Origin: Methanoregula sp.
GTDB taxonomy: Archaea > Halobacteriota > Methanomicrobia > Methanomicrobiales > Methanospirillaceae
Assembly (NCBI GenBank): GCA_030651815.1
Contig: JAUSBW010000236.1
Span: 1-37,827 of the forward strand
DNA length: 37,827 bases
Direction: 5' to 3'
Positions 14,752-33,242 of this stretch are shown here, piece after piece (position 1 is the first letter of the stretch; every line of letters starts with the position of its first letter). Under the pieces are notes generated by a model. The model was not told where the DNA came from. It did not search any database and saw only the letters and a program-made list of their open reading frames with translations. Both the position numbers and the translations under genes were made by a program.

Positions 14752-16248
14752 TTATAAGAAACCCCGTGTTTTTAAAATTTTCTGGAAGATTGTATTAATT
14801 CTACCTTGAGAAAGCAATCTAATTAGCCAGGGGTGTGCTAATATCAAATATCCATGCTTCAATACAGGGGGTGTTCTTCCGGCCAAGTATATCAGGATCT
14901 TGCTATACGATTTTTCAGGATATAATATGTTATTCCGTTTAAATTTCAGATATGGATCACTTTTAAGATCAATTAACGAATCATTTAGTGCTCTTGCATA
15001 GAGTTCAGTTCCTGGGAAAAATGTGAGTGAAAACGAACTGATATTATAGGGTTTTGGCATTTCTGCCAAAAATGTTATTGTTTTAGCAATATCTAGTTCA
15101 CTCTCATAGGGGTTATCAAGGATAATATCATAATATTTTACGATGTGTGGGAATTCTGCAAGCATTTGCGTATTTTTTTTGAATAATTTTGCATTGAATG
15201 GTCTTTTGTAGCAGTTTTTCTGGACATTCTCACTACCCGATTGCAAACCTATCTCAATTGAGATGAGACCCGCTTCAGATAGTAAAGAGATTTTTTCGCG
15301 GCTAATAGTGTTTGCATTCAGATTGCACTTAAATGGGAGATTGATCGATGATTTATATTGTTCACAGAATTGTTTAATGAATTCTAACGGTCGTGCAGTG
15401 AAATCATCATCAAAAAAACTGATAAAATTGATAAAATTATTATGTCGGGTTATCTCTTCTAGTTCTCCTATAATGTGTTCAATACTCCTTGTTCGAAGAA
15501 ACGTTCCCTTTCCCTTATAGATTTTATGATAATGGTTGTTACAGCAATACGCACAGTGATTGGGACATCCACGGGAGGTCATTGTTAAATATTGGTAATT
15601 TTCGCTCGTTTTAAGACCAAAATAGTGCTGTAGGGTGCTTCCCATCGTGAGAAGATCTTTCATTATTTTTTCAGTTCCCGGGCGAATGTGCGCATCCTTA
15701 ATAATAAACATGTGATTTATATCATAATCTTGATATGGATATTTATCCAAATTTTGTTCAAGCGGCCGAACATCATTCTTTATAACGACCCCTTCTTCTG
15801 TTTTTATCCAGATTCCCATAATATCTCGTAATGGCTCTTTATTTTTAACTGCCTTTGCGATTTCCAGCATTGTTTCTTCACCTTCGCCCAGACAGACAAT
15901 ATCGCAATGTAGTATCGATGTATCAGGACTTACTGTCGCATGAATGCCCCCCCATATCACCAGTTTTTCGGGAAATTCTCTCTTCAAAAAATCACTCAGT
16001 GCAGCTGCTGAATGATAATAGCTTGAAAAAACTGAAAATGCAATAATATCGCAATCAGTTATCAAGCGGGCAAGTTCTTCGTAAATTTCTTGAGGGTATC
16101 CCCAATCCCCCCAATTCATTCCGTCAGTTAAATCTGGTGATAAAAAAAATAATTTGGTCTCAAAATGATTACTCAATAAATATGATGAAATACATCTTAA
16201 ACCATAATTTGTAGTATAATGAGAAGGATCGATAAGAGCAATTTTCAT
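14752..16248 (-). CDS. B12-binding-type radical SAM protein
   Basis: This 498-residue protein has an N-terminal cobalamin-binding-like Rossmann domain (residues 1-140, with WGGIHAT at 99-105 and GEGEE at 121-125) and a radical SAM core with the [4Fe-4S] ligands C228, C232 and C235 in RGCPNHCAYC, plus IGLQSGSE further on. Such class B enzymes carry out radical methylations or other C-C and C-H chemistry. In glycan loci the substrate may be a lipid or sugar precursor, but the sequence does not say. A C7 run at 15947-15953 sits in the gene without breaking it. No ribosome site is visible. It is flanked by relics on both sides and may be an orphan from an earlier operon. Confidence 0.85.
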   Translation of the reverse strand: MKIALIDPSHYTTNYGLRCISSYLLSNHFETKLFFLSPDLTDGMNWGDWGYPQEIYEELARLITDCDIIAFSVFSSYYHSAAALSDFLKREFPEKLVIWGGIHATVSPDTSILHCDIVCLGEGEETMLEIAKAVKNKEPLRDIMGIWIKTEEGVVIKNDVRPLEQNLDKYPYQDYDINHMFIIKDAHIRPGTEKIMKDLLTMGSTLQHYFGLKTSENYQYLTMTSRGCPNHCAYCCNNHYHKIYKGKGTFLRTRSIEHIIGELEEITRHNNFINFISFFDDDFTARPLEFIKQFCEQYKSSINLPFKCNLNANTISREKISLLSEAGLISIEIGLQSGSENVQKNCYKRPFNAKLFKKNTQMLAEFPHIVKYYDIILDNPYESELDIAKTITFLAEMPKPYNISSFSLTFFPGTELYARALNDSLIDLKSDPYLKFKRNNILYPEKSYSKILIYLAGRTPPVLKHGYLILAHPWLIRLLSQGRINTIFQKILKTRGFL

Positions 16249-16756: not shown

Positions 16757-17557
16757 CTATTTTTGCACCTTAAAAACCAACGTCTGACGGAAGGGTATGA
16801 TTATTGACATTACCCACGATTCACCCTTCGTCCAGAACGGGAACTGAAGGGTCAGCCATTTTAAGGGTATAATAACCGGCCAATACGATGTAAATGCATG
16901 ATCGGTGTAGGTGAATCCATTCCTGTTCAATAATCGGTATAGCGTCGTAAAATCCCAGTTATATATATGGTCATTCTGGGTCCCGGTATTGCGCTCTTCA
17001 TTATCAATGCAATTTGCTATTTTTTTTGCAAATCGGTAATTAAAAAATAACAGATGGTGAAGAATATTCGCATAAGAATGTGCATTGGGAGTGGAAAGGA
17101 TCAAGTAGCCGTTGGGTTTTAAAAGCCGATGGAACTCTTTTAAAAATTTTCCAGGAGAGTCTACATGTTCGATGGTCTCTAAAAACAAGATGCAATCAAA
17201 GGATTTACCGGGGAGATTAAGAGTGAACAGATCACCCGCAAGAAAGTCAATATTATCTGCCCCATAAAAATCCTGTGCAATTTCAATGGATGATTCAAGA
17301 ATATCTACAGCAACTACCTTTTTTGCCTTTTTTGCTATGCGACTGGCAAAAATACCTATTCCACACCCTACATCGAGAATTGTATCGCCTTCAACCATAT
17401 GGAGTGTTGTCGCAGCACGGGATGGCAGAGGATTTTTTTCCGCTTTTTCAAGCAGGGCAGCTATTTCTGTTTTAGACCATGTTTTTCCATCATATACATA
17501 CTGCTTTTCCATACCTTCATTCCTCATTTCGATTGTATTAGGATTCTGGCTATTCAT
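16757..17557 (-). CDS. class I SAM-dependent methyltransferase
   Basis: This methyltransferase, about 266 residues from the chosen start, has motif I ILDVGCGIGIFASRIA, the acidic VVAVDILESS of motif II, and late motifs FDCILFLETIEHV and LLKPNGYLILSTPN. Its closest style is UbiG-type or type 11 methyltransferases in glycan loci, which methylate sugars. The ATG at 17557 overlaps the flippase stop by 8 nt. A longer reading from 17620 would overlap the flippase by 71 nt and is less likely. It is the last gene of the 16757-27624 block. Confidence 0.85.
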   Translation of the reverse strand: MNSQNPNTIEMRNEGMEKQYVYDGKTWSKTEIAALLEKAEKNPLPSRAATTLHMVEGDTILDVGCGIGIFASRIAKKAKKVVAVDILESSIEIAQDFYGADNIDFLAGDLFTLNLPGKSFDCILFLETIEHVDSPGKFLKEFHRLLKPNGYLILSTPNAHSYANILHHLLFFNYRFAKKIANCIDNEERNTGTQNDHIYNWDFTTLYRLLNRNGFTYTDHAFTSYWPVIIPLKWLTLQFPFWTKGESWVMSIIIPFRQTLVFKVQK

Positions 17558-19043
17558 TGATCCCCAATAATTTACGGATAATTGGATATTTTCTGATATC
17601 GCTACAATGCAGCATTTCAAGGAGTATTTTCATTTCCTGGGGATTTATTGCTCTTATCACTATCATCATCCCCCCATATGTGAGTATTCCAATAATGCAG
17701 GATATCAGTACTGATTCAATAAGTACATTCATGACGATCAAAACTACTATTGCCATTATACCTGTAGAGAAGAGTGTTTTGTAAAGAAATGTCCAATCAT
17801 ATACAAAATTGATGTATTTATTCCCCAGCCAGATCTCGAAGATCATCTGTAGCATAAACGAGAGGCATAAAGCAACTGCTGCTCCAAGGATTCCAAGCCA
17901 TGGAATGAGAAGAACATTCAATATAATGTTGAACCCTGCTGTAACAAACAATGATATTGTGCCGTAGATCTGTTTCCGGACGAATCCCAAAGAAAGGACA
18001 AAATAACTGCCAATAATGTGAAACATAAATCCCAGTGCAATAAATGGCACGAGCGGGGCGCCTGCTAAAAATTCCGGGGATGTTAACAAGATAAAGATTG
18101 CGGAACCAAGCAGTGCAAAGCCGGCAATTGCAGGAATCATGATTCCAAGGGCAAGTTTCAATGAATAATTAAAGAGCTCGTTCATTTCGCTGAATTTTTT
18201 GAGATTGAACAATTCTGCTGCTTTAGGAGGGTACATTGTCCATATTGGTCCAAAGATCATGCTCATAATCATATATCCAAAGGAATACGCGACACTGAAA
18301 ACCCCCACTGCCGCAAGATTATCGTAATAGCCAATGAACACGCGGTTGGATAACGTCAGTATCCACCATGCATATCCCATAGGGAGCACCTGTACGCCAA
18401 ATTTTAATAATTTACCTAGGATGGATAAATCCGGATACGAGAAGCCCTGATTTTTTCCGATATGAATCAAAATTATCAGAACCAGAAGAGATTCGAAGAG
18501 AAATGTTACGAGAATCAATTCGAAGAGGTTCCCTTTGGAAAATGCAACTATAGCAGAAAGAAGTGCAACTGAAAAAGCTTGAATTATATTGATTATTGAA
18601 TAGACTTTTGCATTATCCTTCATGCGGTACCATAGCTTGCACATACTGAGAAGGGCAGATTCCAGTAATACAAAACCCGCCAGTATTATAAATTGAAAAT
18701 TCTCCGGGCTGTCCAAAACGAGGACAGATAATTGCTGGGAGAAAATGCAGAGCAGGCATACACATATGATACCTGAACACGTAATAAAAAGTAAAATCGA
18801 TGAAAATGTTTTTTTAATGAACATTTCCCCTTTTCCGGAAGTGCAGGTGATAACAGCGGAATCCAATCCTAATATCACAATTGGGGTGAGCAAGGAGACG
18901 AGGACAGTAACCTGAGCCCAGATCCCGTAATTTACCGAACCATACGTTTTAGTAAGAATTGGAATTAAAAGGAGTCCTTTTAAACTAAGCAGGATCTCCG
19001 TCACACTTAGGATGGCAGTGTTCTGGAAATACTTTTTAATCAT
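17550..19043 (-). CDS. polysaccharide flippase (Wzx/PST family)
   Basis: This 497-residue integral membrane protein has 12 to 14 predicted helices. It begins MIKKYFQNTAILSVTEIL, with the N-terminal amphipathic start typical of Wzx-like MATE/PST exporters. It should flip lipid-linked oligosaccharide across the membrane. No polymerase (Wzy) is obvious nearby, although the multi-pass protein at 4927-6555 is the other large membrane enzyme. It starts directly after the stop of the methyltransferase at 19044 with no gap, so the genes are cotranscribed. Confidence 0.88.
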   Translation of the reverse strand: MIKKYFQNTAILSVTEILLSLKGLLLIPILTKTYGSVNYGIWAQVTVLVSLLTPIVILGLDSAVITCTSGKGEMFIKKTFSSILLFITCSGIICVCLLCIFSQQLSVLVLDSPENFQFIILAGFVLLESALLSMCKLWYRMKDNAKVYSIINIIQAFSVALLSAIVAFSKGNLFELILVTFLFESLLVLIILIHIGKNQGFSYPDLSILGKLLKFGVQVLPMGYAWWILTLSNRVFIGYYDNLAAVGVFSVAYSFGYMIMSMIFGPIWTMYPPKAAELFNLKKFSEMNELFNYSLKLALGIMIPAIAGFALLGSAIFILLTSPEFLAGAPLVPFIALGFMFHIIGSYFVLSLGFVRKQIYGTISLFVTAGFNIILNVLLIPWLGILGAAVALCLSFMLQMIFEIWLGNKYINFVYDWTFLYKTLFSTGIMAIVVLIVMNVLIESVLISCIIGILTYGGMMIVIRAINPQEMKILLEMLHCSDIRKYPIIRKLLGINE

Positions 19044-19622
19044 TTATCGGATCCTTTTTTCCGCATGAACGATACTCCATCCTTCAAAAAATATGTTTGA
19101 AATACAATAGGCTCCCGGGATTTTATATATGATAGATAAGACTTTTCCCAGATATGTGAAAGAATAGTCTTCCAGCAGGAGGAACGTTGTTCTGAAGGGG
19201 TACTTCTTCAGGAGTGTTTCCAACTCCCAGGGATGCCAGATATGGTTGACCACTCCATGTTCAACATTTTTAACTCGTATCAACCGCGGTTTATTGTAAT
19301 CAAAAACGATAAATTGCCCTCTTGGTTTCAATACTCTGGATACTTCTTTTATCAGTAATTCCGGAGTTTTAATTTGATAGAGAGCAGCTATCATAAATAC
19401 AAAATCAAAAGAATTTTCCTTGAACGGAAGAACCTGACCATCACAGAAAACACAAATATCGCCCGAATCATAGTACGAACTGGCAGGGAGATCCGTACTT
19501 ACATAATCCTCAAAAAGATCCCGGTAAAGGCAGCCTCCAGCGGCTATCTCCAGTACTGAACCTCCACGGTACTTTTTTTTCAATATTCTTTCAATTAGAG
19601 CGAATCGAATTCCCCTTCCCAT
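19044..19622 (-). CDS. small SAM-dependent methyltransferase
   Basis: This 192-residue protein has motif I SVLEIAAGGCLYRDL (about residues 22-36) and motifs DGQVLPFKENSFDFVFMIAALYQ and VLKPRGQFIVFDYNKP, typical of type 11 methyltransferases. It lacks a long N-terminal extension. The ribosome site GAGGTG precedes the ATG. It ends exactly where the flippase begins. The substrate is probably a glycan sugar or carrier; it is not determined. Confidence 0.8.
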   Translation of the reverse strand: MGRGIRFALIERILKKKYRGGSVLEIAAGGCLYRDLFEDYVSTDLPASSYYDSGDICVFCDGQVLPFKENSFDFVFMIAALYQIKTPELLIKEVSRVLKPRGQFIVFDYNKPRLIRVKNVEHGVVNHIWHPWELETLLKKYPFRTTFLLLEDYSFTYLGKVLSIIYKIPGAYCISNIFFEGWSIVHAEKRIR

Positions 19623-19634
19623 TCACTCACCACC

Positions 19635-20741
19635 TCAGCGGATACCTGTTAATTGAGATAATTTTCTGTATGATCTTATTAAAAAATTCCGGACTGTATT
19701 TGATATATAAGGTAATTCTTTTTCAAAAACTGAATATTCAATATAGTGTCCGCCCCATTTTTTTTTAAATCTCCGAATTCCTTCCTCCTTCGCATTGGAA
19801 GGATGGGGGTTCACGCCAGCCAGATCAAATGTATGGCAACCGATGCTTTTTGCGTACCTGAACATCTCCCAATGCAAGAGATCCTGGGCATAGATCTTGT
19901 TTTCATATGCCAATTTACTGGTAGATGACATGATTTCCGTGGCATATCCGTTATATACAGGCATACCCAGAACGGCTTCTATGTTTCCACCAAGTTCAGC
20001 GTAAAAATAGTGATAATATTTATCGTGATTTTCGGTGTTTTTTATTGTTTCAGCAGACCATAGTGGGATTTCCGATCGCCCGAATTCTTTTTCCATTCGG
20101 TTATAGGGAATAATAAATTTTTCAATAAATTCTTGGGGTCCACTCACTTTTTTGACAATAACCCCTCTCCCATCCATTTGTTTAAGGGATTTTCTCGCGG
20201 AGTGTTCGAGGCTCATCCATAGTTTGTCTTCATCCTGAGTTAAATCCACAAGATATGTGCCCCAGATTTTCCTTGTATATCCGAACTGTTCGAAAATATT
20301 CAGGATTCTGGTGTCATTGGAATAATGCGGTTCGTACCTGAACGGGGATATATGTATTGAACCCACATGGTGTTTTTGCGAATAGGAATCGATAAATTGT
20401 AAATATTTATGCATTATATCTAGATCATTTCCTCTCTTCAAAATTACGGGTCCACCCAATGAAATAATCTGTTTTGAGAAAATTCGATTAATTTCATTAA
20501 GTATCCGATAGAAAAATGTCTGGTTTCTGATATATGGATATTGAATATTCAGGGGAGCATATGCCAACGCCGCCTCATTTTCAGTAAATTCTAAAAACAA
20601 TGTTTCATATTTATACGCCTTTTTTATAATTTCCGACCAGCAATAGGATTGTAGAAAGTTCGTGGAAATACTTTTTAAAATTAATCTATCCCATTCATCT
20701 TCCTTTTTAGGATGTAGTTCTTCGATCTGAATTATACTCAA
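19635..20741 (-). CDS. FemAB/GNAT-like aminoacyl- or acyltransferase
   Basis: This 368-residue protein resembles FemX/FemAB-like and GNAT-domain proteins: a double GNAT fold with an ARKSLKQMDGRGVIVKKV segment (about residues 173-190), AELGGNIEAVLGMPVYNGYA (about 249-268) and the late block FDLAGVNPHPSNAKEEGIRRFKKKWG in pieces. FemAB enzymes use aminoacyl-tRNA to add amino acids; relatives in polysaccharide loci acylate sugars. The start appears to be TTG, overlapping the upstream glycosyltransferase TGA and only 3 nt after a strong GGAGG. No other in-frame start is close by. It could add an amino acid to an amino sugar of the glycan. Confidence 0.7.
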   Translation of the reverse strand: MSIIQIEELHPKKEDEWDRLILKSISTNFLQSYCWSEIIKKAYKYETLFLEFTENEAALAYAPLNIQYPYIRNQTFFYRILNEINRIFSKQIISLGGPVILKRGNDLDIMHKYLQFIDSYSQKHHVGSIHISPFRYEPHYSNDTRILNIFEQFGYTRKIWGTYLVDLTQDEDKLWMSLEHSARKSLKQMDGRGVIVKKVSGPQEFIEKFIIPYNRMEKEFGRSEIPLWSAETIKNTENHDKYYHYFYAELGGNIEAVLGMPVYNGYATEIMSSTSKLAYENKIYAQDLLHWEMFRYAKSIGCHTFDLAGVNPHPSNAKEEGIRRFKKKWGGHYIEYSVFEKELPYISNTVRNFLIRSYRKLSQLTGIR

Positions 20742-22000
20742 TCACCTCCCCGTCCATCTTTTTTATAAGGGTTTTTTTCCCATCCATAATCCTGAATTTG
20801 GTGACCGGTAAGAAGTGTGTAGTAAAAGATAAACTGATCAAGGCAGGTTTCCCAATTGTGATATTTATATACCCATTCGCGTGCCTCTTTTCCCAGTTTC
20901 TCCAAAAACTGACGATCCGCACATTTCATTATTTGTTCGTAGATCTCCTCTTCCGAATGGCAGTTTAATATTGGGGGGTCATCGGGATATAACAGTCTTG
21001 CACACGCACGGTCGATATAGATCATAACCGGTTTTCCCACGGACATAGCTTCCATTGCAATTCCTCCAAAACCCCCAATATCAAACTGATCTACAATTAC
21101 ATCTGACTTGTAGAATTCATCAACTAATTCATCGCGAGACAGATGGGGTTTCCAGATGAAACGATCTTCTACACCCAGATCCCGTATGAGTTGCTTGGCA
21201 ATCTCCCGATCAGAGCCCCGGTCCAGAATGATGCATTGTGCATGTAGCCCGGATTTTATTGCCTTTGCAAAAGCCCGGATAAACCGGTCATTGCCTTTTG
21301 AGGATTTCCGATTTTCACCGGTATCGTTCACTTTCCAGTCGAGATGACTGGTATGAAAGAATGAAATTGTCTGATTCTTGTCAGTTATACAACCGATATT
21401 AACTTGATCGACGAGATAATATGGATATCTCATAAAAACAACACGCGGAACATCATGGATGAAAATATTTTTGAGTGAGTTTGGATATGGCGCACACCAG
21501 TTCAGATCTGCACTATGAAGGTGTTGACGATATAGAACAGCCCCCAGTGATTTTTCATTTACCCACTCAGTAATATCTGATCCTGTGGTGATATTTACTA
21601 CCGGAGGCAACTGTATCAATGATCTTAAAAACCAGAATTTACCTAAAAAAAAGATTAATGCACCCGTAAAACTCACGATCAGTCTACATTTTTTTGCGAG
21701 CTTTATGAATTCCCGGGTTGTATGAATTGTGATTATATTATTCTCTTTAAAATGCGTATGATATTCTGATACTATCGTTACGTTATTTGAGCTTTGATCG
21801 TGTTTTCTTAAAACACCGCATTTGAGACCTTTCCGGCTAAGGTGCTCTGCAAATAACAGATCATTCTGGACTAAGTCACCGATGATCATCACATCAAACT
21901 TTTTCTCTTGAATATGTGCCCACTCCTTGAAATTTTTGATATTCTTATCCGATATTACATAATTTCGTAATCTTCGATAAGTAACAACCCCCCCCTGCAA
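20738..22000 (-). CDS. glycosyltransferase (GT4-like)
   Basis: This protein of up to 420 residues has a GT-B layout: an N-terminal Rossmann strand FDVMIIGDL, and in the C-terminal half QCIILDRGSDREIAKQLI, VIVDQFDIGGFGGIAMEAMSV in pieces and GKPVMIYIDR, containing the glutamate of the donor site. The start is unresolved. The longest reading begins with TTG at 22000 beside a run of eight C (21988-21995) and overlaps the formyltransferase by 46 nt. A GTG/ATG pair at 21892/21889 would start just inside the first strand. The C-terminus overlaps the FemAB-like gene by 4 nt. Confidence 0.75.
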   Translation of the reverse strand: MQGGVVTYRRLRNYVISDKNIKNFKEWAHIQEKKFDVMIIGDLVQNDLLFAEHLSRKGLKCGVLRKHDQSSNNVTIVSEYHTHFKENNIITIHTTREFIKLAKKCRLIVSFTGALIFFLGKFWFLRSLIQLPPVVNITTGSDITEWVNEKSLGAVLYRQHLHSADLNWCAPYPNSLKNIFIHDVPRVVFMRYPYYLVDQVNIGCITDKNQTISFFHTSHLDWKVNDTGENRKSSKGNDRFIRAFAKAIKSGLHAQCIILDRGSDREIAKQLIRDLGVEDRFIWKPHLSRDELVDEFYKSDVIVDQFDIGGFGGIAMEAMSVGKPVMIYIDRACARLLYPDDPPILNCHSEEEIYEQIMKCADRQFLEKLGKEAREWVYKYHNWETCLDQFIFYYTLLTGHQIQDYGWEKNPYKKDGRGGD

Positions 22001-22854
22001 TTTATTATTAAATTGTTATCGAAGGATTCAACGCATTCACCATATTTTGCATCGGAATAGTTTATTCGTGTATCAAATACCTGACAACGCCAGATCTTAA
22101 TGCATTTTTCATTAATATATCCATAAGCCCCTGGATATGGTCTTGTTTGCGCCCGGACAAAATTGTAAATCTGCCAGACATCCATATTTTCCCAGTTAAT
22201 TAATCCGTCAGCAGGGGAGCGTTTTTTATAATAACTGGGAATTCCGTCCTGTTTTTTTACGCTAATGGTTCCATCAATAATCTTTGGCAGGCTTCTTATT
22301 AGCATACGTTTTGTCACGATTACATTTTTCATGTATAATGTCCGGATATCATCAAAATCATTAATATCAAACATTTCTGTATCAATTATGTCACCATCAT
22401 CAACCCCAGGCTTAATAAAAAACAGATGCATAATAAATCTTTTTTTGCCTTCAATTAACGACCAATTTAGCGGAGATCTCCCTCGACCTTTGGGAAGAAA
22501 ATCAGAACTACCATGTCCACCTATTGCACCAATATTTAGTGTATCCAAAACATTTTTTGGAAATAAACGCTGCCAGCCACCTTGAATCAACAAATCAAAT
22601 TTATGCTTGTTAAAAAAATTATAATCCTCGTTGTTTTTTAATGAATAATCGATTGGGTAATAAACGGGGATATTATATTGTTTAGCTAGTGACTCAAAAT
22701 TTTTATACTCGGAAACATTAAACTTTTGTGCTTGCTCTTCAGATAATGTTACAAAATATTCGAATTGGATACCTTCTTCAAGTAATGACTCAATAATTTT
22801 ATAGCCTGCAAAGTGGCAACCACACATCACAAGTTTTTTTTCTTTATCTAACAT
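21955..22854 (-). CDS. sugar N-formyltransferase-like protein (Fmt/ArnA type)
   Basis: This 299-residue protein has a formyltransferase N-terminal fold and an Fmt-type C-terminal domain (WQIYNFVRAQTRPYPGAYG). It should transfer a formyl group from N10-formyl-tetrahydrofolate to an amino sugar. The region usually written N-x-H-(x)-LLP is G112-G113-H114-G-S-S-D-F-L-P, followed by RGRSPLNW and VDDGD with D152. The catalytic His and Asp are kept, but the usual Asn two residues before His is Gly. It starts inside the 3' end of the upstream deacetylase-like gene (11-nt overlap) with an AAGGAG site. Confidence 0.75.
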   Translation of the reverse strand: MLDKEKKLVMCGCHFAGYKIIESLLEEGIQFEYFVTLSEEQAQKFNVSEYKNFESLAKQYNIPVYYPIDYSLKNNEDYNFFNKHKFDLLIQGGWQRLFPKNVLDTLNIGAIGGHGSSDFLPKGRGRSPLNWSLIEGKKRFIMHLFFIKPGVDDGDIIDTEMFDINDFDDIRTLYMKNVIVTKRMLIRSLPKIIDGTISVKKQDGIPSYYKKRSPADGLINWENMDVWQIYNFVRAQTRPYPGAYGYINEKCIKIWRCQVFDTRINYSDAKYGECVESFDNNLIINCRGGLLLIEDYEIM

Positions 22855-23596
22855 TTTTTCTCCTTATTTGATTCATGATGAGATCATATCTCATATGTTG
22901 CTTTTTATTCCTCCCATTAATACATCGTGATATCCGATCCCGTGGGCTAAGGACATCGTAAGTCCACCATTCAGGATGGGTTAAAATTTGCAAGTTATTG
23001 TCATCACTATCATTTAATAAATCGAACAATCTCTGAAAACGCCAGTACCCGTTTGAATCAGAACAATATGTATAATGTTTCATAATATATTTTGAATACG
23101 TATTTACTAATCCGCCAAGATAATCTGCTTTTAAATCCAATGCATTCGTAGTATCAGGTTGATGGATTGAAATCACTAAAATTCGTTTATCAAACAAATC
23201 ATCTAATAAATTTTTTTCTATTTCTATCCATTCATGTAAATTTTTTTTATTATGAGAAAGACTTTCAAAAAAAACGGGATCAAAATGAAGACCAATTTCA
23301 TGATCTAATTCTAATATTTTATTAATCAAGGATGTGATTTCATCTTCAAAAAGATTATAGTGAATGCTATGTAAATGGAGAAAAAATGTACTCTTGATCC
23401 CTTCTTCTGCCTCAATTTTTGCCAAAGAAAAAGCCCTATGGATGGAGACATCAACATCATGCCGCCATAAAATATTATGACCTGCCTTTTTATAGTCCTG
23501 ATAACTGATAAAATCAAATTTTTTTATTGCAATTTTTATTAATTTGCGATATTCATCCTCAGTAAAATCGCCAAAATTAAATTTTTCATAATTCAT
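22844..23596 (-). CDS. polysaccharide deacetylase-like protein
   Basis: This 250-residue protein has RHDVDVS (about residues 45-51) with the Asp pair, GLHFDPVFF (about 101-109) as the histidine block and LTHPEWW near residue 205, the pattern of divergent NodB-type deacetylases in surface glycan clusters. It could deacetylate an amino sugar before formylation by the enzyme encoded next, an inference from order. The ribosome site GAGGT precedes the ATG. No signal peptide. Confidence 0.7.
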   Translation of the reverse strand: MNYEKFNFGDFTEDEYRKLIKIAIKKFDFISYQDYKKAGHNILWRHDVDVSIHRAFSLAKIEAEEGIKSTFFLHLHSIHYNLFEDEITSLINKILELDHEIGLHFDPVFFESLSHNKKNLHEWIEIEKNLLDDLFDKRILVISIHQPDTTNALDLKADYLGGLVNTYSKYIMKHYTYCSDSNGYWRFQRLFDLLNDSDDNNLQILTHPEWWTYDVLSPRDRISRCINGRNKKQHMRYDLIMNQIRRKNVR

Positions 23597-23732
23597 ATTT
23601 ACCTCACACCTTAATTTCTAATTAAACATTAAATGCTTAAACCTGTATTGAATTTATTCGGCAATCAAGTTCACCGTCATTGGGGTATTCATACACACAC
23701 GCGAATTCAGATATTTCAATTCGTGTTTGACC

Positions 23733-24407
23733 TTACTGTCTTTTAAGTCGCTGAATTGTGACTGAATTTACTCCCTTTTTTTTAGCTGAATCTAGAAACA
23801 TTCTAATATCATATTCTTCCTGTACGAATTCAATTCCGGATCGTGTATCAAAAATTGCCGCTTGCGCTCTGTTATCACCATTTCTTGGTAAGCCAACAGA
23901 TCCCGGATTAACAATATTTTTTGCTTCAATTTTTTTATAGAACGGATAATGGGTGTGCCCTAGAAAAAAATAATCTGAATTGATCATTAAAAAATTCTTA
24001 AAATATTGATAATCCGGATAGACATATTCCTGCAATGGATCCCAAGGACTTCCGTGAAAAAATAAGAATTTTTTTCCATCAAGTGTTAGATTTAGTTTCG
24101 TTGGAAGCGAAGCCAGCCAGTGAAGCACTTTTGGGGAAATTGAATTTTGTACATATTCTAAATTATATATGCATGCACGTTCAGGTGGATACGATAAAGT
24201 GCCTAGTAGATATGCTTCATGATTACCACAAATCGCGGATATATCAATTTCCATTAATCGGTCAAGAACTTCAATGGATTGGTGAAAATATCCAATCATG
24301 TCACCTAGACAGATAATTTTTTCAACGTTATTTTCTTCAAATTCGTGCAGGATTACCTCAAGCGCATCACAATTGCCGTGGATATCTGAAATTATACCGA
24401 TTTTCAT
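23733..24407 (-). CDS. metallophosphoesterase (YfcE/MJ0936-like)
   Basis: This 224-residue calcineurin-like phosphoesterase has the five metal-binding blocks: SDIHGN (D8, H10), GDMIGY (D36), GNHEAY (N62, H63), HGSPWDP and GHTHYPF. These enzymes hydrolyse phosphodiesters or phosphomonoesters with two metal ions. Its position inside a dense glycan operon suggests action on a phosphorylated sugar or carrier intermediate, but the family is broad. It follows the epimerase by 9 nt. Confidence 0.85.
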   Translation of the reverse strand: MKIGIISDIHGNCDALEVILHEFEENNVEKIICLGDMIGYFHQSIEVLDRLMEIDISAICGNHEAYLLGTLSYPPERACIYNLEYVQNSISPKVLHWLASLPTKLNLTLDGKKFLFFHGSPWDPLQEYVYPDYQYFKNFLMINSDYFFLGHTHYPFYKKIEAKNIVNPGSVGLPRNGDNRAQAAIFDTRSGIEFVQEEYDIRMFLDSAKKKGVNSVTIQRLKRQ

Positions 24408-24416
24408 TTTATCGAT

Positions 24417-25337
24417 CTAATGAACATTCTTGTATTCTTGTATGCAATCCACTAATCCATCTCTCATTGAGTATTTTGTGGAAAAATTTAACTCGTTTCG
24501 AGATTTTGAAACATCAATAGACACTTTTTTTCCTTCTTGAGGGTCTTCTTTCCCGGAGTACGTAATTTTGGATTTTGATTGAGTAAGTTCGATGATAAGA
24601 TGTGCTAATTCATTCATGGTTATTGTTTTTCCACTTGCAATATTATAAATCCCTGATTTTTGTTGGGTGTATGCTTGCCAGAATGCTTGTGCAACATCCT
24701 TGACATAAATAAAATCCTGTTCTCTATAGCCATTACCATATAATACCAAATCTTCATCATTTAAAGAGCGTTCAATAAAAATATTTATCACCGTTTTTAT
24801 TCGATTTTCAATTCCATAAGGCGCATTCAATCTCAGGATTGTTAAGGGTAGTTGATTGTTTTGATATTCTTTATAGAATAACATTTCACCAACATATTTT
24901 GAGATGGAATAATAGTTTTCTGGCATTACTACGGTCATTTCTGACCACGGAATAGGGGTTATTCGCGAATATACTGAAGAAGTGGATGCATATATTAAAT
25001 GAAATTTGTTTTTTGTCCAAGCATCCAATATGGATTTGTGCATTTTTATGTTTTTGTCAAAAATACTCAGGTCTGTATTAAAAAATGATTTGGGGATGAT
25101 TGAAGATAGGTAAATAAGCGTATCGATATTTTTATCGGAAAGCCAATCAATAAGCGACTGATTACATGTGATATCCACGGAATCAATGCGGATATCCTGA
25201 ATTTTTCCGCCGTTTTGAGAGCAAAGGTATACATAGACAGACTCATTCAGGAAACGGGATGTAACCTCCGTTCCAATAAATCCGGTTGCACCCACAATTG
25301 CGACGCTCGGTTTCATATGACCTGTGATCCATTTCAT
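24417..25337 (-). CDS. NAD-dependent epimerase/dehydratase (extended SDR)
   Basis: This 306-residue protein has GATGFIG (about residues 16-22) for NAD(P) binding, S119-S121, and the YxxxK pair Y143/K147. Such enzymes epimerise, dehydrate or reduce nucleotide sugars. The ATG at 25337 overlaps the upstream methyltransferase stop by 4 nt, and a second in-frame ATG lies seven codons on, right before the first beta strand. The exact substrate is unclear; the adjacent two-domain methyltransferase suggests a branched or C-methylated deoxysugar route. Confidence 0.82.
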   Translation of the reverse strand: MKWITGHMKPSVAIVGATGFIGTEVTSRFLNESVYVYLCSQNGGKIQDIRIDSVDITCNQSLIDWLSDKNIDTLIYLSSIIPKSFFNTDLSIFDKNIKMHKSILDAWTKNKFHLIYASTSSVYSRITPIPWSEMTVVMPENYYSISKYVGEMLFYKEYQNNQLPLTILRLNAPYGIENRIKTVINIFIERSLNDEDLVLYGNGYREQDFIYVKDVAQAFWQAYTQQKSGIYNIASGKTITMNELAHLIIELTQSKSKITYSGKEDPQEGKKVSIDVSKSRNELNFSTKYSMRDGLVDCIQEYKNVH

Positions 25338-26545
25338 TCTTTTTTCGAAATCAAATTGATATCATTTACATTTTGGTTTATAAAAAGATCATCCCATGTT
25401 ATTATTCTTAAATCTTTGAGAGAATCACCCAATTCTCGTTTAATTTTTTCTCCAAAGGAATGCGTGAAAATAATAAGTAATTCTGGCGGATCTCTTACTA
25501 ATTCTTGACGATTTTCAATTGGGACGTTGAATCCTGGATAGTATGTCCGGTAAAGAACGGGATTATCATCAAAAAAACGCAGTTTTGGTAAATCAATTCG
25601 AGACTTGATTAAAGAGAGTATGTTGATTGCTCTACCTGGAACAAAAACTCCCATTGTATATTTATGTTGAGTGGCAGATTTAAAAAAATCTGTAATTTTC
25701 TCAAGATCATTTTGTGCAAGAATTTGAAATTGTTTTGCAAGTATTTTTTGAGATTCAATTGCGTTGTCGTCTGGCTGTTTTTTCAAGTCATTTGATAATA
25801 TGGATGCATAAAGCAATCCTCCAAAATGTGATTTTTTTATATCCCCCGCCAGTTTTGTTGAAAGCGTAATGGAATTTTGTAATGTATCTGATGTAAAAAA
25901 ACTCCAGTGTTCGTGGAAAATAAAGGAGAGATCCCCCGTTTTTATATATGGCTCACAATCCGGTACTGAAATAAACATTTTCCCATTTTGATTCAAATAC
26001 TTCATTACTTCTTTGAAGAACTGTGAAATATCCGGAATATGTTCAAGAAAGGCATATAAAATAATAATGTCAAATTTTCCGGTAATTTTAGATGAGGGGA
26101 AAAAATCTCTAACTATCGGAATTTTGAAACGTTCTGCACCAATTTGCCCTTGTAGTCCTGGTTCAATACCGATCACATCAGCACCACGATTTTTCAATTG
26201 GTAAAGAAGATAACCGGTTCCACATCCAATCTCCAGAATTTTTAAATTTTTAAAATTATCGGTTTTTAATGTCTTGTTCAAAAATTTAATAAAATCTTGT
26301 GCATATAACTCCCCAATACCGTGATCATCCATCATTCCGCTGATTTCAGAACCTGTTAAATATGCTTTCGATAAAATTTTTTCAACATATTTATTCTTCG
26401 ATTGAATAAGTGTCCCAGTTTTTTTATCAATATCTAATGAAAATGGAAGAAAATCAGGGATGTCTCCACCATTTGATGGTTCTAGTAATGGTTTAAAAAC
26501 AAATGGAAGTGAACCGATATGCCAAGGATATGAATTAACGCCCAT
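25334..26545 (-). CDS. two-domain SAM methyltransferase, sugar C-methyltransferase type
   Basis: This 403-residue protein has a central SAM domain (ILEIGCGTGYLLYQL, VIGIEPG, DIIILYAFLEHIPD) and a C-terminal Rossmann-like domain (VFVPGRAINILSLI, RFFDDNP, ELLIIFTHSFGEKI), the layout of Methyltransf_11/Methyltransf_14 proteins such as TylCIII-like sugar C-methyltransferases. The N-terminal zinc-binding cysteine cluster of the classic family is missing; that region instead has an unusual leader (residues 1-75). It overlaps the epimerase gene by 4 nt. Sugar or acyl-chain methylation is plausible. Confidence 0.75.
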   Translation of the reverse strand: MGVNSYPWHIGSLPFVFKPLLEPSNGGDIPDFLPFSLDIDKKTGTLIQSKNKYVEKILSKAYLTGSEISGMMDDHGIGELYAQDFIKFLNKTLKTDNFKNLKILEIGCGTGYLLYQLKNRGADVIGIEPGLQGQIGAERFKIPIVRDFFPSSKITGKFDIIILYAFLEHIPDISQFFKEVMKYLNQNGKMFISVPDCEPYIKTGDLSFIFHEHWSFFTSDTLQNSITLSTKLAGDIKKSHFGGLLYASILSNDLKKQPDDNAIESQKILAKQFQILAQNDLEKITDFFKSATQHKYTMGVFVPGRAINILSLIKSRIDLPKLRFFDDNPVLYRTYYPGFNVPIENRQELVRDPPELLIIFTHSFGEKIKRELGDSLKDLRIITWDDLFINQNVNDINLISKKE

Positions 26546-26568
26546 AGTTCCTCTCGTTAAAAAAATAA

Positions 26569-27624
26569 TTAATCCAATTCATTAATCATAATCTCTTCAA
26601 GTCCACGTAATACCATTCCTTCTTTTGGCTGTGGCATTGAATGAATATCTTCATCAATGAAGTATTTCCGAATAAATAAGTCCGGCTCATTTACACCACC
26701 CAATGCCCGTAGGTATGTTGTTCCTGAGAATCTCGGATTGATTTCAAACGGATAGGCAACTCCGTCAACGTACCGGCACTGGACATTGATGGGACCTGTT
26801 GAACCCAGTTTTTTTGCAATTTCAATACACTGCTTATTAAGATTATCATCATTTACGATTTGTCCTTGGGAAATCCCTGAAGAAATTGCTAAAATCTCAT
26901 CTTTTTTTCTCAACGATCTTATTTTAATCCGGTTCGATAAGCCACTCATTATGAATCGTCTTATCCCTATGACAGAAACAATCTCCTTATCCCGCCCGGA
27001 CAGTACTCCGACCGTATATTCATTCTCATATGAACCGACGTATTCCTGAACCAGTGGCTTTCCGCCATATTTCAAAATATAGTTACAAAAAAAGTTTAAT
27101 TCTTCAGCATCTTGTGCAATAAATGTATTATTTGACCCGCCACCCCCAAGATATGGCTTAATTACTGACGGGAAAAAATCAATCGACTGAATGTCTCTTT
27201 TGGTTTCAATTGGGACTGTTCTTGGAATAGCAATTCCACACGTATCTAGATATTGAAAGGTCTCTTTTTTGTTTAAACACAATTTAATGATCCGTGCGTC
27301 ATTTATAGGTAAAAAAATACCTTGGTCTTGTAATACATCACGGTTTTCTGATATTGCCCAAAGATCTGGTTCAGATCCGGGAAAGAGAACATCGATTTTT
27401 TCATTTTGACAAATAGATAATAACTTTTCAATATATAATGGATCGATTGCTGGTGGAAGAGTGTATTTTTTGTCCGATTTGGAAAATCCTAAATTATATT
27501 TTACCATATCACATCCACAAATATAATATGCTATTTCGGAATGACGGAGTGCTTTAAGAATTTCTAATCCAAACCCTCCCCCACCGACACCGGCAATTAA
27601 TACTCGAATTGGCGTATTTCTCAT
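26569..27624 (-). CDS. ATP-grasp enzyme (CarB-like)
   Basis: This 351-residue protein has an N-terminal pre-ATP-grasp Rossmann domain (RVLIAGVGGGGFGLEILKAL, FPGSEPDLWA) and an ATP-grasp fold (VIKPYLGGGGSNNTF, PLVQEYVGSYENEYTVGV, NVQCRYVDG, FEINPRFSGTTYLRA). ATP-grasp ligases join a carboxylate to an amine or similar nucleophile through an acyl-phosphate. Within a glycan operon it may attach an amino acid or acid to a sugar; the substrate is not readable. The ribosome site AAGGAGG (27631-27637) is 6 nt from the ATG. It is the first intact gene of the long minus-strand block ending at 16757. Confidence 0.85.
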   Translation of the reverse strand: MRNTPIRVLIAGVGGGGFGLEILKALRHSEIAYYICGCDMVKYNLGFSKSDKKYTLPPAIDPLYIEKLLSICQNEKIDVLFPGSEPDLWAISENRDVLQDQGIFLPINDARIIKLCLNKKETFQYLDTCGIAIPRTVPIETKRDIQSIDFFPSVIKPYLGGGGSNNTFIAQDAEELNFFCNYILKYGGKPLVQEYVGSYENEYTVGVLSGRDKEIVSVIGIRRFIMSGLSNRIKIRSLRKKDEILAISSGISQGQIVNDDNLNKQCIEIAKKLGSTGPINVQCRYVDGVAYPFEINPRFSGTTYLRALGGVNEPDLFIRKYFIDEDIHSMPQPKEGMVLRGLEEIMINELD

Positions 27625-28067: not shown

Positions 28068-29024
28068 TCACATTCTTTTGTACCATTCTATAGTAGTTTT
28101 TAAACCATCTTCAAAATTAACGGATGGATGAAACCCAATCAGATCCTCTGCTAAAAATATATTAGCAATATGACGTTTTACATCACCCGGTCTTTCTGTC
28201 TCATATATAATTTGTTCATTACACCCCAAATAATTTTTAATAAATTCAACTAAATACCGGATTGAAATCTCTTTTCCACTTGCGATATTTAAAACCCGGT
28301 TTCTCGTATTTTTATGATTATATACTTCAATCGCAGCATTTGCAGTATCTGTGACATAAAGATAATCCCGGGTCTGTCTGCCATCACCGTAAATTGCCGG
28401 GGCCATACCATTCAATATTCTCTTTATTGTCAGGGGGATTACACCAGCATAACTTTTCTCGTTTTGGCGTGGTCCATAATTGTTAAAGGGCCGGATAATT
28501 GATGCATCGATCCCAAATGTTCTGCAATAAGAGAATATCAACAGGTCTTCTGCAGCTTTGCTGGCGGCATAGGTAGTGGTGCCATTCAAAGGATGATTTT
28601 CATCCATCGGCCCGGAAATTGACGTTCCATATGCTTCAGAAGAAGAAAAATGAATTAATGTCTTAAAAAGATCATTCCGTGCCAATTCACACATCGCCAA
28701 AGATAAATCAATATTATGTTTAAAAGTCCATTCGGGTTTTTCAAGAGATGCGGGCAACGGTATCACTGCAAGATCGAATACAACATCGATTCCCTCCGTG
28801 CCCAGTATTTTTTTCATTTCTTCATAATTTGATGCATCCTGGTTATACACCTTCAACGAGTCATAATTTTTTTGAGCGTCAGCAAGGTTTTCATTTTTTC
28901 CGAGAAAAAAGTTATCAACAACAATAATTTTTTCAGGTTCTTCTCTGATAATAGCATCAACCAAATGGCTCCCAATAAAGCCGGCTCCGCCAGTAACGAG
29001 GACTGATTTATTTTTTAGACTCAT
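28068..29024 (-). CDS. nucleotide-sugar epimerase/dehydratase (extended SDR)
   Basis: This 318-residue protein has GGAGFIGSHL (12-21) for NAD binding, SSSEAYG (127-133), the Y152/K156 catalytic pair in YAASK, RPFNNYGPRQ and GDGRQTRDYLYVTD, all typical of UDP-glucose 4-epimerase and dTDP-glucose 4,6-dehydratase relatives. The pairing with a DegT aminotransferase directly upstream (4-nt overlap) suggests a 4,6-dehydratase or 4-epimerase feeding a keto or epimerised sugar to transamination. The exact specificity is not clear. Good GGAGGAT ribosome site. Confidence 0.88.
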   Translation of the reverse strand: MSLKNKSVLVTGGAGFIGSHLVDAIIREEPEKIIVVDNFFLGKNENLADAQKNYDSLKVYNQDASNYEEMKKILGTEGIDVVFDLAVIPLPASLEKPEWTFKHNIDLSLAMCELARNDLFKTLIHFSSSEAYGTSISGPMDENHPLNGTTTYAASKAAEDLLIFSYCRTFGIDASIIRPFNNYGPRQNEKSYAGVIPLTIKRILNGMAPAIYGDGRQTRDYLYVTDTANAAIEVYNHKNTRNRVLNIASGKEISIRYLVEFIKNYLGCNEQIIYETERPGDVKRHIANIFLAEDLIGFHPSVNFEDGLKTTIEWYKRM

Positions 29025-30145
29025 TTATATCCTCCAATTGTCTGTTGAATAGTTTCTGCAACCTCATCAATTACTGTTTCTTGCAAGGTAAAATACATTG
29101 GCAGGGAAATTGCCCGATGAAACACATCCTGCGAGCAGGGACATGTTTGAGGTGCATGATACACGGGTTGCATATGCGATGCATACGTTCCAATCTGTGT
29201 CTGAATGCCTCTCGACAAAAGATCCTGGATCATTTTATTCCTGTCAATGGTTGGATTGAGAAGTGCCACATAACTCTGATAGATCGAAATGGTATCGGGA
29301 TCAATATAGGGTTTGTCGATTCCTTCTATTTCATCCAGTCGTGTATCCCAGTGTTGGGCAAGTGTCCGTTTTCGATCGATAATTTGATCGAGTCGCCGTA
29401 ATTGGGCTACCCCAACTGCTGCCGTGATATCACTCATCTTGTAATTATAACCAACATCGATAAATTCAGGAACCGAAAATCTTGCTTTCCCCTCTCGTTC
29501 CCATGCAGACTTCATACCAAACATCGATAAATGACGGGCTTTCGCTGCAATTTCATCGTTATTGGTAACAAGCATCCCGCCTTCACCCGTTGTTATGCCT
29601 TTTCTGGCGTGAAACGAGAAGCAGCCGATATCGCCAATTGCTCCCGCATACTTCCCTTTATATTGTGCCCCTAATGCACATGCCGCATCTTCAATAACCG
29701 AAAGGCTATGATTCCGGGCAATTTTCAAGATCTCATCCATCCGGGCAGGTTGACCAAACGTATGCACCGGAATGATTGCCCGGGTTCTGTCGGTGATAAG
29801 TGCCTCAATTTTTTCAGGATTAATATTATATGAATCAGGATCGATGTCAACGAAAATGGGTTTTGCACCACAGTAAAGAACTGCATGACCCGTTGCAGGG
29901 AATGTATAATCGGCAACCAGAACTTCGTCACCAGATGATACTCCGGAACAGAGAAGTGCAAGATGAAGTGCAGCGGTGCAATTCGTAACGGCAATGGCAT
30001 GTTTTGACCGTATTTTTCGCGCAACACCTTCTTCAAACTCTTTTACTTTTGGACCTTGTGTTACCCATCCGGAATCAAGTACATCCTTAATCTCCTTGAT
30101 TTCATCATTATCGAAATAGGGTTTAGTTAAAGGTATTTCTTTCAT
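29021..30145 (-). CDS. DegT/DnrJ/EryC1/StrS sugar aminotransferase
   Basis: This 374-residue PLP enzyme transaminates a keto sugar nucleotide. The PLP lysine is K182 in FSFHARKGITTGEGG. NCTAALHLAL (55-64), VLVADYTFPATGHAVLY (75-91) and IEDAACALGA (151-160) are family blocks. A GGAGAT site precedes the ATG. Its 5' end overlaps the out-of-frame tail of the wecB-type chimera (30123). That chimera's aminotransferase part is a close paralogue of this gene, for example in the DEVLVADYTFPATGH block. Confidence 0.9.
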   Translation of the reverse strand: MKEIPLTKPYFDNDEIKEIKDVLDSGWVTQGPKVKEFEEGVARKIRSKHAIAVTNCTAALHLALLCSGVSSGDEVLVADYTFPATGHAVLYCGAKPIFVDIDPDSYNINPEKIEALITDRTRAIIPVHTFGQPARMDEILKIARNHSLSVIEDAACALGAQYKGKYAGAIGDIGCFSFHARKGITTGEGGMLVTNNDEIAAKARHLSMFGMKSAWEREGKARFSVPEFIDVGYNYKMSDITAAVGVAQLRRLDQIIDRKRTLAQHWDTRLDEIEGIDKPYIDPDTISIYQSYVALLNPTIDRNKMIQDLLSRGIQTQIGTYASHMQPVYHAPQTCPCSQDVFHRAISLPMYFTLQETVIDEVAETIQQTIGGYK

Positions 30146-31340: not shown

Positions 31341-31415
31341 TTATGCAGCAATTTCCAAAAGCATCGATTCTATCACATTCAGATGGACCGGCAGGGAGAG
31401 TACCTCTTTTAATCC
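31341..31415 (-). pseudogene. DegT aminotransferase C-terminal scrap
   Basis: Twenty-four codons reading LKEVLSLPVHLNVIESMLLE and a short tail match the C-terminal SLPVHPNVT block of DegT aminotransferases. They begin inside the 3' end of the intact aminotransferase gene in another frame and end at TAA 31341-31343. This suggests that an aminotransferase tail was joined here by recombination or deletion. The remaining bases to the chimera (31288-31340) hold nothing I recognise. Confidence 0.5.
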
Positions 31416-32518: not shown

Positions 32519-32601
32519 GTTGCCCCTCCATCAAGAATCTATAAGATTAATAAATTCAGATGCACTCTTATCGGACTGACAAAAACCCTGAAGTCATTTT
32601 A

Positions 32602-33195: not shown

Positions 33196-33242
33196 GATGT
33201 TTTCTCAGGATCATTATACCCATATATGCAAATTTCATTATT

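Follow-up and report, generated by a model that had tools for sequence, protein, structure and literature searches.

The stretch of DNA analysed here (the window; 37,827 nucleotides of a Methanoregula sp. contig) contains eleven long open reading frames (ORFs), all on the minus strand at 16757–27624 and within a larger surface-glycan island, that form a putative operon for the decoration of an amino sugar. In transcription order they encode an ATP-grasp ligase of the PRK12767 family with a PylC-like N domain (26569–27624; Pfam ATPgrasp_Ter, PylC-like_N, and ATP-grasp_3 above cut-offs); a two-domain methyltransferase, MT1, probably of the nucleotide-sugar 3-C-methyltransferase type (25334–26545; Methyltransf_23, with Methyltransf_14 at 19.2 bits and below its cut-off); an SDR protein of the NDP-sugar epimerase/reductase type (24417–25337; Epimerase, 124 bits); a calcineurin-like phosphoesterase (23733–24407; Metallophos_2, 99 bits); a CE4/NodB-fold protein predicted to be a sugar de-N-acylase (22844–23596); a formyltransferase-family protein, FMT (21955–22854; Formyl_trans_N at 39.7 bits against a cut-off of 26.1, and Formyl_trans_C at 60.1 against 21.1); a glycosyltransferase, GT, of the Glycos_transf_1 type (20738–22000; 45 bits); a FemAB-like acyl/aminoacyl transferase (19635–20741; FemAB, 55.7 bits against a cut-off of 24, the best stretch being its C-terminal part); an S-adenosylmethionine (SAM) methyltransferase, MT2 (19044–19622; Methyltransf_11, 44 bits); a Wzx-type flippase (17550–19043; Polysacc_synt, 61 bits); and another SAM methyltransferase, MT3 (16757–17620; Methyltransf_23, 88.7 bits).

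These are the eleven same-strand genes and families named in a preliminary description of the locus; Pfam matches lie above curated cut-offs for ten of the proteins, and the exception (22844–23596) has a predicted CE4 fold. That description also gave many of the genes as overlapping by 4 to 11 nt or directly abutting, which holds for part of the junctions: MT1/SDR and GT/FemAB overlap by 4 nt, the CE4-type gene and FMT by 11 nt, and MT2 abuts the flippase gene. Gaps of 23, 9, and 12 nt separate ATP-grasp/MT1, SDR/phosphoesterase, and FemAB/MT2, a larger one of 136 nt lies between the phosphoesterase and CE4-type genes, and the two long overlaps (46 nt for FMT/GT and 71 nt for flippase/MT3) are probably start-codon artefacts: the TTG start of the GT is probably too early, with the true start downstream, and for MT3 a later ATG is likelier than the TTG. 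The FMT/GT overlap includes an eight-G run (21988–21995, minus strand), the only G or C run of at least eight in the window and a possible slippage site. A promoter and terminator scan returned no more sites than in shuffles, and the operon limits are therefore based on spacing. Judging by synteny elsewhere, the functional set extends past 27624 to include an NDP-sugar 4,6-dehydratase/decarboxylase-like SDR gene (labelled UXS; 28068–29024; GDP_Man_Dehyd 178 bits, RmlB and LegB models below cut-offs) and a DegT-family sugar aminotransferase gene (DegT1; 29021–30145; DegT_DnrJ_EryC1 399 bits, PseC and LegC models below cut-offs).

The operon is rare among close relatives. Its DNA matches one of 232 genomes of the order (E 1e-10), as does MT1 (E 1e-20), in both cases its own genome; the phosphoesterase matches two of 108 family genomes (E 1e-25), and in one family genome the ATP-grasp gene adjoins the phosphoesterase gene. 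Two genomes of the order (L050 and L051), one of them from the same genus as the window, carry a cluster that is related but not the same, with ATP-grasp (36–38% identity), SDR, MT1-like, and DegT1-like genes. The conservation of gene order in other methanogens that the preliminary description proposed as a check was sought among the order and family genomes and not found, whereas sub-sets of the genes are linked in Methanoperedens, Sedimenticola, and Anaerolineales, and Methanoperedens and bacteria hold closer kin than the clusters of the order. A Methanoperedens locus (L079) has six of the eleven operon families in a run of WecB, DegT1 (64% identity), UXS-like (30%), FemAB-like, SDR (56%), phosphoesterase (52%), ATP-grasp (58%), and WbmS-like deacetylase (PF22537) genes, continuing with a second ATP-grasp, a HAD phosphatase, a GT, a flippase, and AsnB; the deacetylase, the second, PylC-like ATP-grasp, and the HAD phosphatase lie directly behind the first cassette (L079 11051–13579). 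A metagenome-assembled Anaerolineales genome (L091) has five operon families in a locus with UXS at 53% identity to that of the window (WbpD, DegT, GFO, UDP-sugar dehydrogenase, UXS, DegT1, SDR, phosphoesterase, single-domain methyltransferase, and ATP-grasp, with a flippase further on), and Sedimenticola (L093) has at least six (UXS, DegT1, AsnB, phosphoesterase, ATP-grasp, methyltransferase, CE4-type at 40% identity, formyltransferase, WbqC, and GT). SDR, MT1, phosphoesterase, and ATP-grasp genes are contiguous in the cockroach-gut deltaproteobacterium Smac51. The sub-sets are thus not scattered and unlinked, the outcome named beforehand as evidence against a joint function, though their order is shuffled and the full set occurs in no other locus that was compared.

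The ATP-grasp protein matches NF009402 (PRK12767) at 351.5 bits over residues 6–349, above the curated cut-off of 218. The same model matches 13 of 294 phylum genomes at E 1e-40, four of them above the cut-off (its own included), and the surroundings were taken for nine of the 12 other genomes. A wider set consists of the best 80 of 92 loci obtained with two peptide patterns, including seven Bradyrhizobium loci that are near copies; neighbours were labelled by best blastp match to window proteins, and the labels do not prove orthology (the 'MT1' of L091 is the single-domain methyltransferase). Within 10 kb of the ATP-grasp gene, these 80 loci hold labels for DegT1 (66), SDR (47), MT1 (45), UXS (42), MT3 (25), phosphoesterase (22), AsnB (16), FMT (3), and CE4-type (2), and 28 DegT1 copies lie within 1 kb on the same strand. 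FemAB is found near ATP-grasp in none of the loci by blastp and in ten by profile. AsnB labels within 10 kb occur in 15 of the 22 loci with phosphoesterase versus one of the 58 without it, kinship being ignored.

In a quick tree (SH-aLRT support only, with long-branch warnings) of 78 rows, being the 80 loci less three for ORF length plus the window, the ATP-grasp of the window groups with Candidatus Methanoperedens (support 99) inside an 18-row clade (support 97) in which every row, the window included, has a phosphoesterase nearby. MT1-, DegT1-, and SDR-like genes accompany the ATP-grasp in most rows that lack a phosphoesterase, among them Mycobacterium persicum, M. attenuatum, and Pseudomonas viridiflava; 12 of the loci without phosphoesterase also have a GalU-like nucleotidyltransferase that might be of the CDP-glucose type, and the clusters of L050 and L051 are of this second kind. 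A profile search of loci longer than 4 kb (L018 upward) places a phosphoesterase within 300 nt of ATP-grasp in 23 loci, or 22 records (L030 and L088 are one record). A HAD phosphatase unrelated to the phosphoesterase takes the same position in seven loci (a Haloarcula plasmid, Methanoperedens, and five phylum genomes), by a profile built from the Haloarcula and Methanoperedens loci that are themselves among the seven; they include the plasmid locus L032 as well as L189–L192, which are four of the seven phylum loci with a CE4-type gene and an ATP-grasp gene within 5 kb.

The presence of two unrelated phosphatases in the same place suggests that the ligase substrate is phosphorylated. The ATP-grasp protein is predicted from its family and neighbours to be an amide or acyl ligase whose substrate is an amino sugar or the carboxylate of one, and the phosphoesterase to remove phosphate from the product of the ligase. 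In Campylobacter, Cj1438C is described as amidating with serinol phosphate or ethanolamine phosphate, after which Cj1435 removes the phosphate (PMC11800379), and PglB2 of Neisseria, also an ATP-grasp protein, is reported to make a glyceramido sugar (PMC11130364). The island might instead use the ligase to amidate the carboxylate of a uronic acid with a (phospho-)amine or amino acid, leaving a 4-amino group unacylated, which we regard as possible though doubtful. The pairing of ATP-grasp and phosphatase follows the Campylobacter logic, both the island and L091 contain uronic-acid genes of the WbpB/D/E-like kind, and a WbpD label lies near 16 of the 80 ATP-grasp relatives. The threonine amide of Methanococcus N-glycans is likewise a carboxylate amidation. 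Other uronic-acid labels are rare, however (GFO in four of 80 and UDPGDH, for which the query protein is truncated, in one of 80, compared with 66 of 80 for DegT1), which speaks against this reading.

The MT1 model (pLDDT 73.9, pTM 0.76) matches KijD1, MtmC, and TcaB9 over its full length (Z 24.6–25.9, 348–356 residues, rmsd 4.4–5.0), the next chain having Z 18.1 over 204 residues. MT1 is thus probably of the nucleotide-sugar 3-C-methyltransferase type, and one methyl of the glycan is probably a carbon branch. H213 is present in all six rows of the alignment and the preceding Glu in three of six, including the window; they may correspond to the Glu-His pair of TcaB9, E224 and H225, for which mutants are named in structure entry titles.

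Pfam gives no match for the CE4-type protein up to E 10, a phmmer search of the PDB finds no known deacetylase, and PDB profile hits are weak (best E 0.037). A profile comparison with the second deacetylase-like protein of the window gives no link (probability 0.6, E 0.1). Its predicted structure (pLDDT 73, pTM 0.78) has CE4 enzymes as leading fold matches, with up to Z 12.6 over 182 residues; among them are PplD, IcaB, PgaB, ArnD, chitin deacetylases, and Bordetella WbmS (3hft, Z 10.6). Residues R45, H46, D47, D49, H104, H145, H207, and P208 are invariant in 14 rows, and on this fold the protein is predicted to be a sugar de-N-acylase. Relatives are found at E 1e-8 as 28 matches in 27 of the 294 phylum genomes, the window included; the 27 non-window matches come from 17 genera, and some of their loci end at contig ends. 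Within 5 kb of the CE4-type gene there is an FMT in five loci, an ATP-grasp in seven, and a FemAB in 11, with any of the three in 20 of 27 and always on the same strand; 13 of the 17 genera have a partnered locus. FMT adjoins the CE4-type gene in four of its five loci and FemAB in all 11 (within 201 nt). Around WecB, used as a control at 40 loci picked from the listed matches and unmatched in taxonomy, any of the three occurs within 5 kb in five of 40 loci, three of which also hold a CE4-like gene (20/27 versus 5/40; Fisher p 4e-7, kinship ignored). The 80 loci plus the window supplied the ATP-grasp profile, and the FemAB profile was obtained by iteration across all loci, both CE4 and control, starting with the window protein. 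Two loci (L199 and L209, corresponding to clusters L023 and L027) have ATP-grasp and FemAB within 5 kb of the CE4-type gene and FMT further along. All three candidate capping enzymes accordingly surround one CE4-type gene in the window, in L027, and in L023 (with L199).

FMT has both formyltransferase domains, its closest solved kin are Fmt and ArnA, and H114 and D152 are invariant in 12 rows. It matches 11 of the 294 phylum genomes, its own included; used as the sole probe of genome contigs it gave 28 pattern matches and no relative. A second, distant formyltransferase relative occurs in the same genome (L017, G000:C252:5911-6627; 27% identity, E 2.8e-16). In eight of the ten other FMT genomes a deacetylase-family gene lies directly beside FMT, of CE4 type in L018–L021 and PIG-L in L022, L023, L025, and L027 (by Pfam in L027, and by blastp identity of 77–81% to it in the other three); neither is directly adjacent in L024 and L026, a PIG-L-like gene lying on the other strand behind one gene in L024. 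FMT-like hits occur in four of the 80 ATP-grasp loci, and in two of these FMT is next to a deacetylase gene (CE4-type in L093 and PIG-L in L094). Four archaeal loci (L022, L023, L025, and L027) share a recurrent cluster of CE4-type, FemAB, hexapeptide acetyltransferase, DUF354, WbqC, FMT, PIG-L, and GT2 genes, with ATP-grasp in L023 and L027, DUF354 and GT2 identified by Pfam in L027 only, and the CE4-type gene of L023 read in L199.

FMT's association with two unrelated deacetylase families favours deacetylation followed by formylation over a transient formylation of the Arn kind. In the latter, FMT would protect an amine, the GT would transfer the sugar, and the CE4-type protein would act as a deformylase like ArnD, exposing the amine perhaps for FemAB and leaving a final glycan without formyl. 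ArnD is a deformylase and ranks second among the Foldseek matches of the CE4-type protein (Z 10.0), ArnA is among the close solved kin of FMT, and the CE4-type, FMT, and GT genes are contiguous. We nonetheless consider this unlikely, because most CE4-like relatives pair with FemAB or ATP-grasp, with FMT within 5 kb in only five of 27, such that a deformylase would have no evident job there; in four family-f8 genomes and in L094 the partner of FMT is PIG-L, of a de-N-acetylase family; and the model fits many other CE4 enzymes equally well or better. FemAB transferases use aminoacyl-tRNA as donor, and the FemAB-like protein, as a member by sequence of that family, could add amino acids or other acids, as could the ATP-grasp protein.

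From the gene families, the two predicted folds, and the recurrent linkage, we infer a pathway with the following substrates, step order, and products. The SDR at 28068 and DegT1 would make an NDP-4-amino-4,6-dideoxy sugar, MT1 would add a methyl at ring carbon 3, and a stereocentre would be set by the SDR at 24417. Amide-bond formation by the ATP-grasp protein would attach a small acid or amine, probably in phosphorylated form, whose phosphate the phosphoesterase would strip. The CE4-type protein would strip an N-acetyl from another amine, which may then be re-capped, either with formyl by the formyltransferase or with an amino acid by FemAB. MT2 and MT3 would add O- or N-methyls, the GT would attach the sugar, and the flippase would export the product. 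We put at about even chances that the island serves in this way to build and export a surface glycan in which an amino sugar is edited, namely a 4-amino 3-C-methyl sugar acylated by ATP-grasp and phosphatase, with another amine deacetylated and re-capped; the glycan could be an S-layer N-glycan or a polysaccharide. The preliminary description envisaged N-formyl, amino-acid, and methyl groups, of which a methyl is probably a carbon branch, formyl is likely, and the amino acid could be some other acid. It also did not recognise the combination as a described archaeal pathway, and we likewise found no paper on it in an archaeon in the open-licence literature: each step has precedent and none was found for the combination. 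We know of no archaeon with a 3-C-methyl, N-formyl, N-acyl sugar.

Several observations weigh against this pathway. The complete set is in none of the compared loci and gene order varies; MT1 and SDR separate ATP-grasp from phosphoesterase in the window; and five other phosphoesterase loci fall outside its ATP-grasp clade, the tree needing three label changes. The N-terminal cysteines that form the zinc site of nucleotide-sugar 3-C-methyltransferases are absent in the MT1 of the window and of L082 (they are present in L087, L088, L090, and L093), and MT1 is therefore said to work like these enzymes and is not claimed as a strict member. Similarly, the CE4-type protein has H104 and no His at +4, so that the H-x3-H metal motif of CE4/NodB deacetylases, kept in seven of 14 rows, is incomplete and it is described only as working like a CE4 deacetylase; seven of the 27 CE4 loci have none of the three partners. 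Searches of the genome for FTHFS did not find it; this was dropped as an argument against formylation, as FolD is present and is a possible source of formyl-folate. FMT ends ~20 residues before most relatives, and it has Gly for the Asn of the N-x-H motif, as do seven of 12 rows (Asn in five). The Asn-His-Asp catalytic triad of ArnA-type sugar N-formyltransferases is thus incomplete in FMT (ArnA is not in the alignment), and formylation is likely and not certain.

FMT might accordingly transfer another one-carbon or acyl group or be inactive, in line with this Gly and with a two-residue insert after the conserved His in the window and L018–L021. We think it quite improbable given that H114 and D152 are kept and that L024, which also has Gly, has nonulosonic-acid pathway genes as neighbours. 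These resemble the pathway of Halorubrum sp. PV6, for which N-formyl-legionaminic acid on the S-layer glycan and a possible formyltransferase, HrrPV6_1050, are described (PMC6137143), and indirectly suggest that Gly need not abolish formylation.

More tentatively still, and with odds we place clearly below even, strip-and-re-cap editing may be shared by archaeal and bacterial glycans, the 3-C-methyl N-formyl N-acyl sugar proposed here being one case. In such a scheme a CE4-type or PIG-L de-N-acylase would free an amine and the cap would be exchangeable, supplied by formyltransferase, ATP-grasp, or FemAB, with the ATP-grasp cap often paired with its own phosphatase, which can have one of two unrelated folds.

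The assembly (3.28 Mb in 285 contigs) is 99.9% complete with 3.1% contamination. Upstream on the same strand beyond the UXS and DegT1 genes are a hybrid ORF, WbpE-, WbpD-, and WbpB-like genes (DegT2, hexapeptide acetyltransferase, and GFO/IDH oxidoreductase by Pfam and NCBIfam; 31409–34232), perhaps for a UDP-2,3-diamino uronic acid, a GalU-like gene (named by reading its sequence), and a UDP-sugar dehydrogenase gene. The hybrid (30265–31221, minus strand; Pfam) joins a DegT N-terminus to the middle of a WecB-type epimerase and is probably broken; residues 1–95 are 67% identical to DegT1 and 91–309 are 45% identical to the WecB-like protein of the window, and its 60.5% identity across 233 residues with the Methanoperedens cassette WecB suggests that it may be what is left of an epimerase belonging to the cassette itself. 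Just past the operon is a gene for a radical-SAM protein with a B12-binding domain (14752–16248, minus strand), with distant relatives in the Smac51 locus, followed by GTs, the second deacetylase-like protein, and an AsnB-type amidotransferase perhaps acting on the same glycan (6635–8476, minus strand; TIGR01536, 509 bits). Two istA/istB-like (IS21) genes, named by sequence reading, lie at the window edge (59–2121, plus strand). Two STT3-type matches are on other contigs of the genome, and an AglB/STT3 oligosaccharyltransferase of archaeal N-glycosylation might act on this glycan.

The GC content of the operon is 36.1% versus 46.1% across 13 readable stretches of other contigs (20 were taken and seven, wholly N, were dropped); as 32 pieces of 2.5 kb this background has a mean of 46.0, a standard deviation of 4.5, and a lowest value of 36.6. 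The GalU-like protein of the contig is 90% identical to one in a same-genus genome, which makes the contig unlikely to be a contaminant. Together with the low GC and the sporadic DNA and protein matches, this indicates an accessory island in a genuine contig, probably transferred. The genes might alternatively be an accidental assemblage of mobile glycan genes in decay, with no joint function. This would accord with the low GC, sporadic occurrence, adjacent hybrid ORF, and transposase-like genes, but is very improbable as none of the eleven frames is interrupted and sub-sets are found again in other phyla.

If the strip-and-re-cap scheme is true, an amide-forming machine beside a de-N-acylase would predict a chemical group on a surface sugar, and an odd enzyme list would become a testable scheme for surface-sugar editing. 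The linkage ties an ATP-grasp family named by NCBI only as 'carbamoyl phosphate synthase-like' to sugar decoration and a partner phosphatase across domains. It further points to amino sugars with carbon branches on the surfaces of methanogens, which would bear on how these cells vary their coats.

The proposed pathway can be set beside several known systems. The lipid A pathway of ArnA, ArnB, ArnC, and ArnD likewise applies a formyltransferase, an aminotransferase, a GT, and a CE4-fold enzyme to one amino sugar, but its formyl group is transient, whereas the window has a separate FMT with Gly for Asn as well as ATP-grasp, a C-methyltransferase type, and FemAB. Halorubrum sp. PV6 resembles it in having an N-formylated archaeal glycan sugar and a candidate formyltransferase in the cluster, and differs in that the sugar is a nonulosonic acid (5-N-formyl-legionaminic acid) and the passages describing it include no ATP-grasp/phosphatase cassette (PMC6137143). 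The Bordetella wbm locus has mid-locus genes predicted to modify the terminal sugar (PMC3849452), and the locus of a new serotype is described with genes predicted to encode a formyltransferase, an aminotransferase, a methyltransferase, and an asparagine synthase (PMC12243275); WbmS shares the CE4 fold with the window protein (see above), and sequence similarity to WbmS was sought and not found.

In M. persicum, M. attenuatum, and Mycobacterium sp. Marseille-P9652, the ATP-grasp relatives are found with MT1- and DegT1-like genes, and differ from the window in belonging to another ATP-grasp clade with no phosphoesterase label near the three. N-acylkansosamine is a 3-C-methylated, 4-acylamido, O-methylated sugar. 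In Mycobacterium loci L128, L132, and L136, genes like MT1, DegT1, and ATP-grasp follow one another, and these loci are candidates for its pathway. The M. kansasii lipooligosaccharide cluster, of a species whose higher lipooligosaccharides carry N-acylkansosamine, contains epimerase and methyltransferase genes and, unlike the window, a glucose-1-phosphate cytidylyltransferase gene (PMC4403928). The Mycobacterium ATP-grasp protein may make the N-acyl group of N-acylkansosamine. We know of no phosphatase or C-methyl in the PglB2 system of Neisseria. PglB2 differs further in that its ATP-grasp domain is fused to a phosphoglycosyltransferase, and is like the window in that this domain is described as yielding an acylated amino-dideoxy sugar, a glyceramido-acetamido trideoxyhexose (PMC11130364). 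The Campylobacter jejuni HS:2 capsule uses a TupA-like ATP-grasp (the C-domain of Cj1438), a HAD phosphatase (Cj1435), and a glucuronic acid carboxylate, and the passages describing it include no C-methyltransferase or formyltransferase; what it shares with the window is an ATP-grasp ligase working with a dedicated phosphatase to place an amide-linked decoration on a surface sugar (PMC11800379).

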